Assembly (NCBI GenBank): GCA_013361095.1
Contig: JAATWA010000001.1
Coordinates: forward strand, 3,627,001-3,691,000
Direction of reading: 5' to 3'
Source of the DNA: Pseudanabaena biceps
Lineage (GTDB): Bacteria > Cyanobacteriota > Cyanobacteriia > Pseudanabaenales > Pseudanabaenaceae
DNA length: 64,000 nt
In this document: positions 10,833 to 60,793 of the stretch, piece by piece
Position numbering within the stretch: the first letter of the stretch is position 1
Layout: the number at the start of each line of letters is the position of its first letter
The notes under the pieces: model-generated
The model's input: the letters and a program-made list of their open reading frames with translations, nothing else
Databases searched by the model: none
Told to the model about the DNA's origin: nothing
Position numbers and translations under genes: made by a program

Positions 10833-10898
10833 AGATTTTAGTTATAACCAAATTTTTGGAAACTAGCTTTAAGCTAGCTTTCAAAAACTAATTTTCAT

Positions 10899-12100: not shown

Positions 12101-12274
12101 GGATAAAGAGATAAATTTGTTGAAAAAAATAGTTAGCGTTATTGCGTGTATTTTAGTGTATTCTTTCACACCGTCATAAAGTGTATGCAGTAACTCTTAT
12201 TTTCTTTACAATTTGATTCACAAAAGTGGTGGCGCAATCTGGTGAATTGGCATTACAGCAATTTCCGAGCAAAC

Positions 12275-12345
12275 AAACCCGAACCAAGAATTTTTTTAAA
12301 AGTGTTGCTTTGCAACACTTTTAAAAAAATTCTTGGTTCGGGTTT
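12275..12345. repeat. 34-bp-arm perfect palindrome, TTT loop
   Basis: Two exact 34-base arms running from AAACCCGAACCAAGAA to AAAAGTGTTGC flank a TTT loop. Continuing right, GAGCGCAAAGCGC forms a further small hairpin. The same element, with one base change per arm, occurs at 58985-59045, and diverged or half copies lie at 15190-15245, 21181-21272 and 43971-44021. Confidence 0.85.
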
Positions 12346-12382
12346 GAGCGCAAAGCGCCTACCTACAGCGTTTTTCTAACGA

Positions 12383-15574: not shown

Positions 15575-15616
15575 TTGGCGATTTCCCTAAAGAAATTTTC
15601 ATTATAAAAATTAGTT

Positions 15617-15690
15617 TTTTGCCGCGCCTTCGGTGCGGCAAAATCCATGATTCTCCTAACAAAAAAGCGGCGCGAAGCGCCGCTTTTTTG
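15617..15690. terminator. Two stem-loops between convergent genes
   Basis: TTTTGCCGCGCC-TTC-GGTGCGGCAAAA (15617-15643) and CAAAAAAGCGGCGC-GAA-GCGCCGCTTTTTTG (15660-15690) lie between the convergent ArsR-type and carbonic anhydrase genes. Both have flanking A/T runs, so each may terminate one or both transcripts. Confidence 0.85.
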
Positions 15691-20300: not shown

Positions 20301-20954
20301 ATGTTTCCTTTACATGACGATAATCCCACTCAAGATACATCCATCGTTGTTTATACGATAATTTTGATCAATGTCTTGATTTTTGGCTACCAAACTAGCC
20401 TACCAAACTTTCAACTAGGGCAGTGGCTAAATACTTGGGCAGTGATTCCACAGGAACTAATTGCTAATCCTTCCAAACAGGCGATCGCGCTAATTTCCTC
20501 ACAGTTTCTCCATGCCAATATTTTCCATCTCGCTGGAAATATGTGGTTTCTCTATCTATTTGGCAATAATATCGAAGACCAATTAGGGCATTGGAAGTTT
20601 TTGTTTTTTTACTTGCTTTGTGGCGCAGTTGCCGCAGGTGCGCAGGTTATGACTGCGCCGATGTCAAATGTACCAATGATAGGCGCAAGTGGAGCTATCT
20701 CAGGAGTAATGGGAGCATATTTGATCAGGTTTCCCCGTGCCAGAATTTTGAGCTTGGTCTTTTTAGGGATTTTTATTACTGCTATTCCCATACCTGCGGC
20801 AGTATTTTTAGGTCTGTGGATTGCTGGACAAACGGTTTACGCGGCAATAGCTAATCCTAATTTACCAGGAGTAGCGTACCTCGCTCATATTGGCGGTTTT
20901 GTAGTGGGTATGCTCGCTATATATCTTCTTCCTAAACGTTCAGAAAGACTTTAG
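20301..20954 (+). CDS. Rhomboid-family intramembrane serine protease
   Basis: A 217-residue polytopic membrane protein. The catalytic Ser lies in GASGAISGVMGAYL, the catalytic His in LAHIGGFVVGMLAIY, and the HLAGNMWFLYLFGNNIEDQL loop is the rhomboid L1/TM2 signature. The N-terminus MFPLHDDNPTQDTS is typical of bacterial rhomboids. A palindromic mobile-looking element flanked by a 10-bp direct repeat sits exactly at the stop codon (CTTTAGAAGC includes the TAG). Confidence 0.9.
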   Translation: MFPLHDDNPTQDTSIVVYTIILINVLIFGYQTSLPNFQLGQWLNTWAVIPQELIANPSKQAIALISSQFLHANIFHLAGNMWFLYLFGNNIEDQLGHWKFLFFYLLCGAVAAGAQVMTAPMSNVPMIGASGAISGVMGAYLIRFPRARILSLVFLGIFITAIPIPAAVFLGLWIAGQTVYAAIANPNLPGVAYLAHIGGFVVGMLAIYLLPKRSERL

Positions 20955-21098
20955 AAGCAGCAATTCTCATTATGAAACCAATTTTTGGGTTTGCAGCGCC
21001 GAAGGCGCTGCAAACCCAAAAATTGGTTTTTTGAAAGTTAGATGTAGGCTGGCTTTCAAAAAACCAATTTTTATAATGAGAATTGCTGCTTTAGAAGC
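20949..21098. mobile_element. MITE-like palindromic element with 10-bp direct repeats
   Basis: CTTTAGAAGC at 20949-20958 and 21089-21098 flank a 130-bp element whose ends are inverted (AGCAATTCTCATTAT and ATAATGAGAATTGCT). Inside is a long hairpin with core GGTTTGCAGCGCC-GAA-GGCGCTGCAAACC and a second copy of the CCAATTTTT arm. End-like sequences recur near 35099, 37256-37287 and 60736. There is no transposase, as expected for a miniature element. Confidence 0.75.
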
Positions 21099-21335: not shown

Positions 21336-21374
21336 CATAAAAAAGCACCGCGCTTTGCGCGATGCTTTTTTTAT
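21336..21374 (-). terminator. uvrA terminator
   Basis: ATAAAAAAGCACCGCGC, TTT loop and GCGCGATGCTTTTTTTAT form a strong GC stem flanked by A/T runs, overlapping the uvrA stop codon. Confidence 0.85.
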
Positions 21375-24256
21375 GGAGTGCGTGGATATTCTGCGAGAAC
21401 TTGCTTGAGATATTTGCCAGTGTAAGAACCTGTAACTTCAGCAACTTGTTCAGGCGTTCCTTCAGCTACAATTTCGCCGCCGCGATCGCCGCCTTCTGGT
21501 CCCAAATCAACAACCCAGTCTGCACAGCGAATTACATCTAAATTATGCTCAATTGTGATGATGCTATTGCCCTTATCGACAAGTCTTTGCATCACATCTA
21601 GCAGCTTATGGACATCGTAAAAACTTAATCCCGTAGTTGGTTCATCGATCAGATAAAGAGTTTTGCCCGTAGCCCGTTTTGCTAGCTCCGTCGCTAACTT
21701 AACCCTTTGAGCCTCACCGCCTGAGAGGGTGGGCGCAGACTGACCGAGACGAACATAACCTAAACCCACATCAACCAACATTCCCAATTTAGTATGGGCT
21801 GAAGGAATATTCTCAAAGAAGTGCATCGCTTCTTCGATGGTCATCTCTAGTACGTCAGCGATCGTCTTCTCTTTGTACTTAACTTGCAAACTTTCTCGAT
21901 TATATCTCGCGCCTTTACAGACATCACACTGCACATAAACATCAGGCAAAAAATTCATTGAGATTACATTGACTCCTTGACCAGAGCAAGCTTCACAGCG
22001 CCCACCCTTGACATTAAAAGAGAACTGTCCTGCTTTGTATCCCCTAGTTTTTGCGGCTGTGGTCAAGGCAAAGGTTTCTCTAATTACGTCAAATAATCCT
22101 GTGTAAGTCGCAGGATTGGAACGTGGCGTGCGCCCGATCGGAGACTGGTCAATGACGATAAATTTATCAAGAGCCTGAAGCCCCTTAATTTCATCAATTC
22201 CTTTAGGTTTAGGCACTTTGCGCGAAAAATGATGATCGAGGGCATGGTGTAACAGATCATTTATTAATGTGGATTTGCCTGAACCTGATACGCCTGTGAT
22301 ACAGACAAGCTTACCTAAGGGAAGTTGCACATTAATATTTTTGAGATTATTGAGATAGGCATTACAAATCTCTAAATACTTGCCATTTCCTTCACGGCGA
22401 TCGCTAGGAGTATAAATCTGCTTTTGCTTAGATAGATAAGCACCTGTGAGCGAGTCTGGATGTTTTTCGATATCTTTGACAGTGCCTTGAGCGACAACTC
22501 TACCGCCATGTACTCCCGCCCCTGGCCCTATATCGACTAGATAATCAGCAGCACGAATGGTTTCCTCATCATGTTCCACTACGATCAGAGTATTGCCAAG
22601 ATCTCGTAATTTTGTCAGAGTTCCCAATAAACGAAAATTGTCACGCTGATGTAATCCAATACTCGGCTCATCTAACACATAAAGAACGCCTGTCAGCCCT
22701 GAACCGATTTGCGTGGCAAGGCGAATTCGCTGAGATTCGCCACCAGAGAGGGACATCGTAGAACGATCAAGAGTGAGATAGTCTAAGCCAACATCGAGTA
22801 AGAATTGTAATCTTGATTCAATTTCTTGTAAGACCCGATCGCCTATTTGTCTGGTGCGATGATCAAGATCGAGATTTTTTAATTGGTCTAAACAAGTCCC
22901 AATGGGAGCGGAGACAAACTCGATGATATTGTAGCCGCCAATGCGAACAGCAAGGGATTCGGGTTTTAGTCTTGCCCCGTCACAAATTGAACAGGGCTGC
23001 TCGATCAAGTAGTTTTCTAGCTTTTGTTTTTGTGACTCTCCTGCCTCCGCATATTGCTGCTCTAGCATGGCGATCGCGCCTTCAAAGCGTTTGTAATATC
23101 CTTCACTGCGATCGCGATAGAGAGAGTCTGGTTTAATTAAAATTTTCTCGGTTGTACCGTGCAAAATGATGTCAATCTGCGATTGAGAAAGTTGTTCCCA
23201 AGGTGTGGTAATTTCAAAGCCAGCATATTCACCCACACTGGATAGAAGTGAGATGTAATAAGTATGGCTTTTGTCTGCCCAAGGCGCGATCGCAGCGTAA
23301 ACTGGTAGGGTGGGATTAGGAACTAATAATTCTGGATTAAAGGTTTTGATACTGCCCAATCCATGACAGGCAGGGCAAGCACCATAGGGAGAGTTAAAGG
23401 AAAACATTCGCGGTGAGAGTTCTTCCATCACCGCGCCATGTTCGGGACAGGCAAAGTTTTCCGAGAAAGTTAAGATAGAGTTTTTACTTACTTCTTTCTT
23501 AGTAGATTTAGACTTTCCATCGGTGTCAGATGCAGTCAAGATTTCTACCATCGCGATTCCTTCCGATCGCTTGAGGCAAGTCGCTAGAGAATCGGTCAAA
23601 CGCTCTTGAATATCTCCTTTGCGAACTAAGCGGTCAACTACAATCTCAATATCATGGGTCTTATTCTTTTCAAGTTCGATATTGTCACTAAGTTCACGGA
23701 CTTCGCCATTAATCCGTACTCGCGCAAATCCTTCAGAAGCGAGGCTCGTCAATAATTTTTTGTGGGTTCCCTTTTTGCCACGAATTACGGGAGCTAGTAA
23801 TTGGAAGCGCGTGCGATCGCTTAATTCCATAATCGAATCCACCATCCGATCAATCGTCTGTGGTGCAATATTGCGATCGCAGATCGGGCAGTGCGGCGAA
23901 CCTGCGCGTCCAAACAACAACCGCAAGTAATCGTAAATCTCAGTAACTGTGCCGACTGTGGAACGTGGATTGTGAGAAGTTGATTTTTGATCTATAGAAA
24001 TAGCGGGACTTAGACCTTCGATGTAGTCTACATCGGGCTTATCAATCTGTCCTAAAAACTGACGCGCATAGGCACTCAGGGACTCGACATAGCGGCGCTG
24101 TCCCTCCGCAAAAATAGTGTCAAATGCTAGCGATGACTTGCCAGAGCCAGACACACCCGTAAACACGATCAACTGATCACGGGGAATTGTAAGGTCAACA
24201 TTCTTAAGATTGTGCTGTTTAGCACCCCTGACATGGATATGGGTATGGTCTGGCAT
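21371..24256 (-). CDS. uvrA: UvrABC excinuclease subunit A
   Basis: The 961-residue DNA damage-recognition ATPase of nucleotide excision repair. Two ABC modules are visible: Walker A GVSGSGKSSLAF near residue 34 and GVSGSGKSTLIND in the second half, ABC signatures SLSGGESQRIRLAT and TLSGGEAQRVKLAT, and zinc-finger Cys pairs (CPICDR, CEACSGQG, CDVCKGARYN). QYRAYVESLSAYARQ-type N-terminal sequence (RRYVESLSAYARQFLGQ) is classical. The length is normal. It is flanked downstream by a terminator and upstream, 9 bp away, by a methyltransferase gene, so it may share its transcript. Confidence 0.97.
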   Translation of the reverse strand: MPDHTHIHVRGAKQHNLKNVDLTIPRDQLIVFTGVSGSGKSSLAFDTIFAEGQRRYVESLSAYARQFLGQIDKPDVDYIEGLSPAISIDQKSTSHNPRSTVGTVTEIYDYLRLLFGRAGSPHCPICDRNIAPQTIDRMVDSIMELSDRTRFQLLAPVIRGKKGTHKKLLTSLASEGFARVRINGEVRELSDNIELEKNKTHDIEIVVDRLVRKGDIQERLTDSLATCLKRSEGIAMVEILTASDTDGKSKSTKKEVSKNSILTFSENFACPEHGAVMEELSPRMFSFNSPYGACPACHGLGSIKTFNPELLVPNPTLPVYAAIAPWADKSHTYYISLLSSVGEYAGFEITTPWEQLSQSQIDIILHGTTEKILIKPDSLYRDRSEGYYKRFEGAIAMLEQQYAEAGESQKQKLENYLIEQPCSICDGARLKPESLAVRIGGYNIIEFVSAPIGTCLDQLKNLDLDHRTRQIGDRVLQEIESRLQFLLDVGLDYLTLDRSTMSLSGGESQRIRLATQIGSGLTGVLYVLDEPSIGLHQRDNFRLLGTLTKLRDLGNTLIVVEHDEETIRAADYLVDIGPGAGVHGGRVVAQGTVKDIEKHPDSLTGAYLSKQKQIYTPSDRREGNGKYLEICNAYLNNLKNINVQLPLGKLVCITGVSGSGKSTLINDLLHHALDHHFSRKVPKPKGIDEIKGLQALDKFIVIDQSPIGRTPRSNPATYTGLFDVIRETFALTTAAKTRGYKAGQFSFNVKGGRCEACSGQGVNVISMNFLPDVYVQCDVCKGARYNRESLQVKYKEKTIADVLEMTIEEAMHFFENIPSAHTKLGMLVDVGLGYVRLGQSAPTLSGGEAQRVKLATELAKRATGKTLYLIDEPTTGLSFYDVHKLLDVMQRLVDKGNSIITIEHNLDVIRCADWVVDLGPEGGDRGGEIVAEGTPEQVAEVTGSYTGKYLKQVLAEYPRTP

Positions 24257-35073: not shown

Positions 35074-35170
35074 AGTTGCGACGCGAAGCGCCGCAACTAA
35101 GCAATTCTCATCACAAAAACAATTGTGGGGTTTTCAGCGCCTTCGGCGCTGAAAACCCCACAATTGTTTT
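35074..35170. repeat. Two palindromes upstream of the nir promoter
   Basis: AGTTGCGACGC-GAA-GCGCCGCAACT (35074-35098, one mismatch) and, with exact 26-base arms, AAAACAATTGTGGGGTTTTC to the TTC loop (35116-35170). Between them, AGCAATTCTCAT resembles the end of the element at 20959. They separate the divergent nirA and pseudouridine synthase genes. Confidence 0.8.
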
Positions 35171-35201
35171 TTTTGGCTGGTGACAGCTATACTTGCTAAT
35201 C

Positions 35202-43814: not shown

Positions 43815-44468
43815 AGTAACTACTCTCCTCTTTGCCTGCTTGCATCCTCGATTAGATGTCACAAGCTTTATATTTCTTGAGTTTGAGTCTCTCACTAATC
43901 ATAAGATTTAACTTTCCAGTTGCAATTTTAGTAACAAAGGACAACGCAAGCGCTTCGCGCTCAAACAAATTCCCAGAATTTTTAAAAGTGCTGCTTTGCC
44001 GCACTTTTAAAAATTCTGGGAACGAGTATAGCTACAGTCATTTGTTTTATCCCAAGAATTGGCTGGCGGCGAGGATCGCCGCCAGCCAATTCTTGGTTTT
44101 TATGTCTTGGAACATTTGGCGATCGCTATAAAAGGTGACGCGCCGCGTCACCTTTTACTTCTTACTCCCTTCCCAGTGAAAAATTAGACGTTGCGGCGCG
44201 AAGCGCCGCAACGCTAGTTCTTGGTTTTTAATGTTTATTTTGATAGTGGGAAGGGAGTATGATCAAAATTAAGCCTAAAGAGAGAGAAACCTCTGGACTC
44301 ACTCTCTGTTAGAGGATTAGGAAACATTCCATAACACACCTAAAGAAGTTATCAGACATTCACAGTAGCAAGAACTACAGAATTTAAAAGCGAGATCAAC
44401 ACAATTGGGATAGCAAAAGGTTGCTCATGCCCTTGCAAAATGTTCCATATATTTTTAGGAGGAGCCAT
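43815..44468. repeat. Cluster of at least four palindromes
   Basis: No gene is seen in 43815-44468. It holds a degenerate 12275-type palindrome (43971-44021), a 21-base-arm palindrome CCAAGAATTGGCTGGCGGCG (44052-44096), AAAAGGTGACGCG with its complement (44130-44156), and CGTTGCGGCGC-GAA-GCGCCGCAACG (44189-44213) enclosed by outer arms TACTCCCTTCCCA (44163) and TGGGAAGGGAGTA (44247). TATAGCTACAGTCATTT (44027) recurs inverted at 57348-57364. The region looks like repeated insertion of small elements. Confidence 0.8.
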
Positions 44469-57277: not shown

Positions 57278-57332
57278 AAAACCCAATAATTGGCTGGCGG
57301 CGCGGAGCGCCGCCAGCCAATTATTGGGTTTT
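57278..57332. repeat. 26-bp-arm perfect palindrome, GGA loop
   Basis: AAACCCAATAATTGGCTGGC with GGCGC, loop GGA, exact complement. Same type as 44052-44096 and the inner unit of 15097-15149. AAATGACTGTAGCTATA to its right recurs inverted at 44027-44043. Confidence 0.85.
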
Positions 57333-58794: not shown

Positions 58795-59159
58795 AGGAGG
58801 TTTATAAATTTCTAAATATTAAATACAAAGCTGTTATGGAAGTGGCAAAGTCAATAGCTGTCAACGGCTTAAATCGCAGTGCCATCATAAATCTTAACGT
58901 GTTTTTGCGATCGCGAAGCTTGTTTATGGTAACCCAAGAAATGGCTTTGCCATTTCTTGGGTTACAGCGCTTTGATTTCAAACCCGAACCAAGAATTTTT
59001 TTGAAAGTGTTGCTTTGCAACACTTTCAAAAAAATTCTTGGTTCGTTTGATCATAAATTGCTGTAGGGCTTTTACTATAGCAAGGCTAAAGTTAGCTAGT
59101 ACCCACCAAAACCGCAGAAGCGAGTTGCGGCGCTTCGCGCCGCAACTCGCTTCTGCGGT
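58795..59159. repeat. Gene-free stretch with three palindromes
   Basis: GTAACCCAAGAAATGGC-TTT-complement (58929-58965), a 29-base-arm copy of the 12275-type palindrome (58985-59045), and AAACCGCAGAAGCGAGTTGC-type 25-base arms with TTC loop (59109-59161) that contain the pxcA stop codon. 58795-58928 and 59046-59108 show nothing else. Confidence 0.82.
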
Positions 59160-60698
59160 TTATTCGTTCATTTCGCGATATATCGTGGCTGTGGCGGGAG
59201 ATGCTTGAGTGAGATATTGGAAAATCCAGAATTTGAATAATCCATCAAGAAATACGGGAACTGTGGAGATAAATAACTGGGCAAGGAGCTTGTTTTCAGG
59301 TAACCCAAAGTGCTGAAATATTGTTGTTATTAATGCATCCCAACCTTCGCTAGAGTGAAACCCTACAAAGGTGTCAGTAGAGACGATGATCAAAAAGGCT
59401 TTGGCATTGTCATTTAAGCTATACAAGACCTCATCTAAAAACTCTTTGATCGTCATCCATTCATTACGCCCTGAAATTAAAAACAGATAAAACACAAACG
59501 CAGCGCTAATATCAGATAGCAAGTTTTTTACACCATCTAGACTTTGGGCGTTGTATTTTTTAAGAATCCTCACCGACTCTTGTTGAATTAGGGATTCAAC
59601 CGATTCTTTTTCTGATAACTCTGGTTTATTAACTTCCGATTTGTTGGCTTCGGCAGGTTTATTGGTTACTGATTCCTTTGATTCTGGCTTATTTGTTTCT
59701 AGTTTCTTACCCTCTTCTTGATTCTGAGACTGCTCGCGGATAAATGATTTGATCGTAAAGTCAAACTCGATTCGTTCCTTGACCAGCCGTAGTTCTTCAA
59801 ATGCTCTTTCTTCGATCGCAGGGCTAAATCGCACTGACATATTGTTTACGTCAATCAAGCTATTAATCAAGGGACTAAAAACTAAGGCTTTTGACAAGAA
59901 ATGAACGGTAATAACAGTAATAATCAGCGCCACTATATAACGAGAAGCTTGTTTAATCCGCTCTCTTGATTGCCTGAGTTCTTCGACAATATCTTTTTCA
60001 TAGTCTGTATAACCTCCGCTCAGATTTCGCTTAACCCGATCAAAGGCTTTAAAAAACGAACCAGGAAGAATGCTTCTTTCTAATGTTGTGGCAGGTTGAG
60101 ACATCCTGCGTTTTTTAGGGCGATCGCTTTTAAAAAGCTGAAATTTATCTTCTTCTTCTGAGGGATTGTCAATTTCTGAATTTGTAGGAGGCTGGCTATT
60201 GCCATCGACCAATGGTTTAGTGGGAACATCAATGGTGCGATCGCTTGCCCTCTCATATCTATCAAGGGTGTAGTCGATAAAGGCTAATTTTTGGTAAATC
60301 GAGAATTTTTTAGCATTCCCCCCCAATTGATTTGCCGACAACTGCCCACTGCCCACAGGATCATTGTCAGAAGTATATTTAGCGATCGCTGTATTGGTGG
60401 AATTACTGGAGCTTTGGGGTTGTAAATAGGGTAATGAGGCACTTACCTTATAGAAATTGAGTTGAGTCTTAATGTTGCTGATATATTTCTGAAGCTGAAT
60501 CTCAAAAACGCTAAATACACTGCTGCTAAAACTGCCATTGTTAGCAATTTTATTGTTGCTAAAGTGTTCTTCTTCGATACGTTTGATGTTGACTGCTGAC
60601 TCAAAAGCCTCATTAATGGCTCGTTCAGGAGTATTCTTGACCCAAGAAAAGATATTTTGCAGAGATGAATTACTGTTGTCGGAGGGATTTGATTTCAT
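59160..60698 (-). CDS. pxcA: Proton extrusion protein PxcA (CemA family)
   Basis: The 512-residue inner-envelope protein is needed for light-induced proton release and for pH balance, as in Synechocystis. The CemA core is at the C-terminus: ALVFSPLINSLIDVNNMSVR, SLDGVKNLLSDISAAFVFYL, IVSTDTFVGFHSSEGWDALI, HFGLPENKLLAQLFISTVPV and FLDGLFKFWIFQYL. The N-terminal half is soluble and coiled-coil. A Glu/Lys/Ser/Asn-rich stretch (near NKPESKESVTNKPAEANKSE) is an insertion not seen in the family as I know it. Confidence 0.9.
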   Translation of the reverse strand: MKSNPSDNSNSSLQNIFSWVKNTPERAINEAFESAVNIKRIEEEHFSNNKIANNGSFSSSVFSVFEIQLQKYISNIKTQLNFYKVSASLPYLQPQSSSNSTNTAIAKYTSDNDPVGSGQLSANQLGGNAKKFSIYQKLAFIDYTLDRYERASDRTIDVPTKPLVDGNSQPPTNSEIDNPSEEEDKFQLFKSDRPKKRRMSQPATTLERSILPGSFFKAFDRVKRNLSGGYTDYEKDIVEELRQSRERIKQASRYIVALIITVITVHFLSKALVFSPLINSLIDVNNMSVRFSPAIEERAFEELRLVKERIEFDFTIKSFIREQSQNQEEGKKLETNKPESKESVTNKPAEANKSEVNKPELSEKESVESLIQQESVRILKKYNAQSLDGVKNLLSDISAAFVFYLFLISGRNEWMTIKEFLDEVLYSLNDNAKAFLIIVSTDTFVGFHSSEGWDALITTIFQHFGLPENKLLAQLFISTVPVFLDGLFKFWIFQYLTQASPATATIYREMNE

Positions 60699-60793
60699 GA
60701 TTTAACATCTATAGCCTTGATCAGCTATTTTTATTATGAAACCAATTTTGCAATTCGTAATAAGTTATCTAAGTATAAATCCTCAAACAAGTC

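Follow-up and report, generated by a model that had tools for sequence, protein, structure and literature searches.

At the end of a rhomboid protease gene of Pseudanabaena biceps, in the 64,000-nucleotide stretch of DNA analysed here (hereafter, the window), the sequence CTTTAGAAGC occurs twice, at 20949-20958 and 21089-21098, bracketing a nested palindrome at the stop codon of the gene. The question raised by this locus is whether the palindrome is a mobile element that duplicated its target on insertion and, if so, to which group of elements it belongs and which transposase moves it. A preliminary description of the locus had reported a 10-bp direct repeat around a 130-bp palindrome and, on that ground, had proposed transposition.

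Boundaries and organization of the element

The outer arms of the palindrome extend over 20955-20977/21069-21091, and the two pairs of inner arms over 20975-21000/21004-21029 and 21018-21037/21053-21072. The exact direct match is 11 bp long (CTTTAGAAGCA), but comparison of family copies flanked by exact 9-bp duplications fixes the boundaries of an element of 131 bp, reading CAGCAATTCTCATTAT...ATAATGAGAATTGCTG (Table 1), with a true target site duplication (TSD) of 9 bp, CTTTAGAAG; the match exceeds 9 bp because the 5' CA of the element itself coincides with a CA in the right flank. The reported repeat is thus real, whereas its size and that of the element had to be corrected, and the start of the element, previously given as AGCAATTCTCATTAT, moves one base outward. 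The 16-bp terminal inverted repeats (TIRs), CAGCAATTCTCATTAT, match at 16 of the 16 positions. Given that the two inner hairpins, H1 and H2, overlap at 21018-21029, the middle segment AAAATTGGTTT has two alternative partners, the AAACCAATTTT on its left and the one on its right. The element has no coding capacity, the one listed open reading frame (ORF) that touches it (67 codons, TTG start) only exiting from its right half, and so has the small size (<500 bp) and noncoding character of MITEs.

The gene upstream matches the Pfam Rhomboid family (E=7e-35), and its stop codon falls within the left CTTTAGAAG copy (CTT TAG). As the stop lies inside the duplicated 9 bp, the gene retains it, in agreement with the earlier view that the insertion did not break the gene.

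Table 1. Features of the element and its surroundings (window coordinates)
Feature	Position	Strand	Remarks
Left TSD copy, CTTTAGAAG	20949-20957	.	Contains rhomboid stop TAG, 20952-20954
131-bp non-autonomous element (type II MITE)	20958-21088	+	Boundaries derived from family copies with exact 9-bp duplications
Left TIR, CAGCAATTCTCATTAT	20958-20973	+	Identical to TIR of the IS at G000:C5:584-2001
Right TIR	21073-21088	-	
Inner hairpin H1, 26-bp arms, 3-nt loop	20975-21029	+	
Inner hairpin H2	21018-21072	+	Segment 21018-21029 common to H1
Direct repeat AAACCAATTTTT	20975-20986; second copy 21061-21072	+	Spacing 86
Right TSD copy	21089-21097	.	
Rhomboid protease gene	20301-20954	+	Host gene with element at stop codon
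Convergent uvrA-like gene (excinuclease subunit A)	21371-24256	-	Named from translation

A high-copy family with 9-bp target duplications

A search of the same genome produced 193 matches, and its 16-bp end, with at most one mismatch allowed, was found at 210 sites compared to 0 for the reversed-pattern control. Among the 59 full copies examined (length 100-160 bp), 22 are flanked by exact 9-bp repeats and 39 by 9-bp repeats with at most one mismatch; the chance expectation, computed by combining left and right flanks taken from different copies, is 0.0 in both cases. Within this set of 59, there was no excess of repeats of 4-8, 11 or 12 bp, and a 10-bp repeat is present in three copies. The same duplication length was observed in four other Pseudanabaena species, where 36 of the 60 copies have exact 9-bp repeats and 48 have repeats with at most one mismatch. 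The sequences of the 9-bp repeats differ between unrelated sites.

Nearly all copies are intergenic or located at gene ends, a dispersed distribution that is expected of MITEs. Several copies seemingly located inside ORFs (L132, L146, L170 and L149) proved, when the frames were read, to precede the start codons, which lie beyond the element. By a rough ORF-based classification of gene context, 8 copies are found between convergent genes, 13 between divergent genes, and 20 between tandem genes, with 23 left unresolved.

The family also includes 45-bp elements (L142:1030-1074 and L150:1045-1089) that consist of the two TIRs and 13 bp and are flanked by exact 9-bp duplications. They correspond to the 131-bp element shortened by 86 bp between direct repeats, and deletion between the outer direct repeats, such as AAACCAATTTTT, accounts for the 45-bp copies, which occur at several sites.

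Several observations on related elements were made along the way. Partial or decayed family copies are present elsewhere in the window, at 35100-35173 (the left half of the element, with hairpin 1 intact), 15591-15642, 60722-60749 and 10853-10898. A MITE copy at L070:754-1038 carries a further short element (ends ATAGGACTTACGC), inserted just past the left TIR of the MITE. The same genome contains an unlike element of 141 bp that shares the TIRs (L071:594-734 and L162:908-1048), the 9-bp duplication being exact at the former locus and degraded at the latter; it represents a second MITE family with these ends. In the assembly of this genome (G000), one region recurs several times (C9, C13 and C17 start; C17:31000-36000), which fits the 5% contamination estimate.

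Hairpins drift but remain paired while the TIRs decay

Pairing was analyzed in 41 aligned copies from the window's genome and in about 97 copies from five species. Because pairing cells are non-independent and subfamily differences inflate some counts, the results are to be read for effect size rather than for P value: among the 41 copies, both sides changed in 13 of the 26 hairpin 1 pairs and in 6 of the 14 hairpin 2 pairs, compared to 1 of the 16 TIR pairs, each measure being higher than in any of the 500 shuffles; among the approximately 97 copies, 99.5% of the hairpin 1 mid-stem is paired and 65 cells, in at least 35 species-by-type combinations, are compensated, as opposed to 2 compensated and 119 mismatched cells in the TIRs; and, at the decay rate of the TIRs, 165 unpaired mid-stem cells would be expected, of which 30 were seen, along with 100 compensated ones. 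The tip pairs of the hairpins decay about as fast as the TIRs. The segments AAACCAATTTT, AAAATTGGTTT and AAACCAATTTT often change together (19 triple-concordant cells).

That the hairpins drift yet stay paired while the TIRs decay suggests that the two arms are either mutually corrected in place or selected. Many of the double changes in the stems are transversions, and the mismatches include 18 GT versus 5 AC when summed over both mid-stems, with about equal numbers elsewhere; given the many transversions and a G-U count that does not clearly exceed that of A-C, an RNA-only explanation is not favoured. Our preferred, albeit unproven, reading of the drift is in-place correction by template switching: it is conceivable, although we hold this only tentatively, that arm is corrected against arm, probably when the template is switched at replication hairpins, whereas the TIRs, being approximately 100 nt apart, decay freely.

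A further possibility for the copy at the rhomboid gene is that it was retained for an effect of its hairpins on the rhomboid mRNA, either by terminating transcription or by shielding the end of the message. The stop codon is immediately followed by terminator-like stems that have T-rich tails, and pairing is conserved family-wide, but the family occupies divergent and tandem sites as well, and G-U mismatches are not clearly favoured over A-C, contrary to what selection on RNA predicts; on balance, we consider such retention unlikely. A terminator role as the function of the entire family was rejected given that the copies are not concentrated at convergent gene ends. All matches of the element to RNA families were far below the gathering scores.

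An insertion sequence with the same ends

The preliminary description had pointed to a genome search for full transposons with the ends of the element, and such a search was productive. An intact insertion sequence (IS) of 1418 bp at locus L061 (C5:584-2001) has perfect ends identical to the 16-bp TIRs of the MITE and is flanked by an exact 9-bp TSD, GAGATTTAT; an open 444-codon frame between these ends encodes a DDE-type transposase. Only one intact copy of this IS was found in the window's genome; it disrupts the reverse-transcriptase frame of a group II intron that also has an HNH frame (L061:225-3428). The agreement between the MITE and the IS is confined to the 16 bp plus at most about 4 bp per end, and because the two share ends only, the MITE is of type II by the definition of PMC10969869.

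Relatives of the IS have in common ends of the form CAGCAATT... and a 9-bp duplication, and one of them is annotated ISNCY. The relative in G004 is 89% identical and has the same ends; those in G030 (42-53% amino acid identity) have CAGCARTTTYAATTTT at their ends, and exact 9-bp duplications flank 4 of 4 copies; plasmid relatives in Calothrix and Anabaena (51-52%) have the ends CAGCAATTCTCATTTT, and one in Saccharobesus (32%) the ends CAGCAATTATTGGT, each of these plasmid copies with an exact 9-bp duplication that was found de novo, the ends not being assumed. The Gloeothece verrucosa protein WP_013335080.1 ('ISNCY family transposase') is 46% identical to the partner transposase over 96% of the query, and its gene is flanked by CAGCAATTCTCATTTT ends, with no TSD found for this copy in the end/TSD scan.

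The partner transposase shows weak but consistent, sub-threshold matches to DDE_Tnp_1_assoc and DDE_Tnp_1, and no match among solved structures. The former similarity and the comparable size of the IS are reminiscent of the ISAs1 family, and the MITE could conceivably be moved by another transposase, such as that of a multicopy ISAs1-family IS, given that at least 11 ISAs1-type copies, with an open frame of 376 codons, are present in the genome and that the partner transposase weakly resembles the ISAs1 N-terminal domain. This appears most improbable because the ISAs1 copies of this genome end in AGCAGGGTGGTTTCATTTTC rather than CAGCAATTCTCATTAT, and the exact ends and the TSD length belong to the 1418-bp IS. 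ISAs1 was also rejected as the identity of the partner itself, the ends being different and the NCBIfam ISAs1 model producing no match to the partner transposase up to E=10, compared to 235 bits for the ISAs1 copies of the same genome.

By the identity of its ends, the 1418-bp IS is most likely the element that moves the 131-bp one. Most genomes of the genus that carry dozens of MITEs produced no transposase match; together with the single intact IS, this implies that mobilisation may be past, or that the IS may have been lost or may be a later arrival.

Empty sites in related genomes

The rhomboid gene is present in each of the other 25 genomes from the genus. The element is absent at this locus from every relative that is readable downstream, where the DNA is not conserved, and with the downstream DNA being different, no clean empty allele was found among these 25 genomes. 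Empty sites were found for two other insertions. The flanks of the L018 insertion align unbroken to two places in G021 (89%), with a single GAGCAATGG-type target, and those of the L145 insertion can be aligned to G011, G006 and G014, where only a single target copy is present and the alignment gap is the 9-bp duplicate. This is the pattern expected for insertion with a 9-bp stagger.

A stem-loop that arose in place (a terminator or a REP-like sequence), with the direct repeat coincidental or a part of the palindrome, would be in line with the three overlapping terminator-like matches within the element, the RNA fold z-score of -16 and the location at a convergent gene end, but the different 9-bp repeats at unrelated sites, the lack of one repeat copy in the empty sites, and the lack of concentration of the family at convergent gene ends render it extremely implausible, and for the family, the 9-bp repeats together with the empty sites refute it.

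The transposition originally deduced from the direct repeat is thus borne out: the 9-bp duplications recur in five species, sister species have empty sites, and the same genome contains a full IS whose ends are identical and whose 9-bp duplication is exact. The broader claim that this class of palindromes is mobile holds for the 131-bp family only and is not shown for the many other 3-nt-loop palindromes of the window. Near-perfect palindromes of this kind, with differing sequences, are found, for example, at 12274-12346, 58985-59045, 57278-57332 and 59109-59161. A second palindromic family, TACTCCCTTCC...GGAAGGGAGTA, is represented at 44160-44262 by an element of about 100 bp that contains a hairpin with a 3-nt loop; copies are nested inside hairpin 2 of two MITE copies (L066 and L160), on which ground this family is probably mobile too.

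Short elements with the same ends beyond Pseudanabaena

The exact two-TIR pattern recovers short elements in Pseudanabaena species, Phormidesmis and other cyanobacterial bins, and also in bins labelled Verrucomicrobia, Kiritimatiellae, Rhizobiales and Gammaproteobacteria; viral contigs yielded 0 matches to this pattern. The interiors of the elements in the cross-phylum bins are unrelated, yet many have exact 9-bp duplications. For single contigs, the bin label may be wrong. Transposase relatives that are 41-45% identical over parts are also encoded in a Rhizobiales bin, and one of them has similar ends close by. The constant length of 117-146 bp in other phyla was dismissed as an artefact of the search pattern. 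Pseudanabaena 'Roaring Creek' has a tandem arrangement (L181:6690-6980) of two unlike elements, each 141 bp long and with the same ends, in which the shared target CTTTAATAT is present three times.

Classification and implications

The combination of TIRs, a TSD, many dispersed copies and an autonomous partner with the same ends is typical of MITEs, and we are highly confident, from sequence comparison, in assigning the element in the window to a high-copy type II MITE family that would be moved in trans by a DDE transposase of the ISNCY-annotated group. The partner transposase is homologous to an ISNCY-annotated protein, ISNCY being a holding class that defines no family. The transposase would bind the 16-bp ends CAGCAATTCTCATTAT, as their identity in the MITE and the IS suggests, and join the 131-bp element to target DNA whose strands are cut 9 nt apart, repair then leaving the 9-bp direct repeats; this step is shown by the duplications and by the empty sites at two other insertions. 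At the locus considered here, the duplicated 9 bp span the rhomboid stop codon, which is kept. After insertion, as observed for the family, the TIRs and the duplications decay, and the inner hairpins remain paired. Between the rhomboid gene and the convergent uvrA, the hairpins would form a strong terminator, as a side effect of the insertion site.

Type II MITEs, such as the Coxiella QMITE families and the Correia element (reviewed in PMC10969869), share with the present element the size below 500 bp, the noncoding character, TIRs, a TSD, AT-rich intergenic sites, a very stable fold and similarity to the partner IS at the ends only. The present element differs in that two hairpins are nested within it, three of its segments can exchange pairing partners, and its arms show strong compensatory drift; these features were not found described in the library searched. 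REP sequences and tagged palindromic repeats (PMC3733652) are likewise short, dispersed intergenic palindromes, but the present element has TIRs, a 9-bp TSD, a DDE-type partner and a length of 131 bp; the duplications set it apart from REP/RAYT palindromes, which lack them. Nezha is likewise a cyanobacterial MITE for which, as cited in PMC3049150 and PMC10969869, ISNpu3-like elements acting in trans have been proposed as movers. In the library literature, no paper contains the TIR sequence and none on Pseudanabaena MITEs was found. We consider the present elements to be a new MITE family with a candidate partner, of a known kind, and do not assign them to Nezha.

One class of palindromes in the window is settled as mobile, and since its ends, the length of its duplication and a candidate transposase can be named, the family can now be annotated across Pseudanabaena. 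The IS group to which the candidate transposase belongs is invisible at the curated cut-offs of Pfam and NCBIfam and has unusually conserved ends; the occurrence of these ends in unrelated short elements, in bins labelled as several phyla, is worth following up. The contrast, within single copies, between hairpins that seem corrected and TIRs that decay likewise deserves follow-up and provides a data set on how bacterial palindromes stay perfect; if in-place correction is indeed at work, the family would document palindrome correction in nature and not selection on an RNA.
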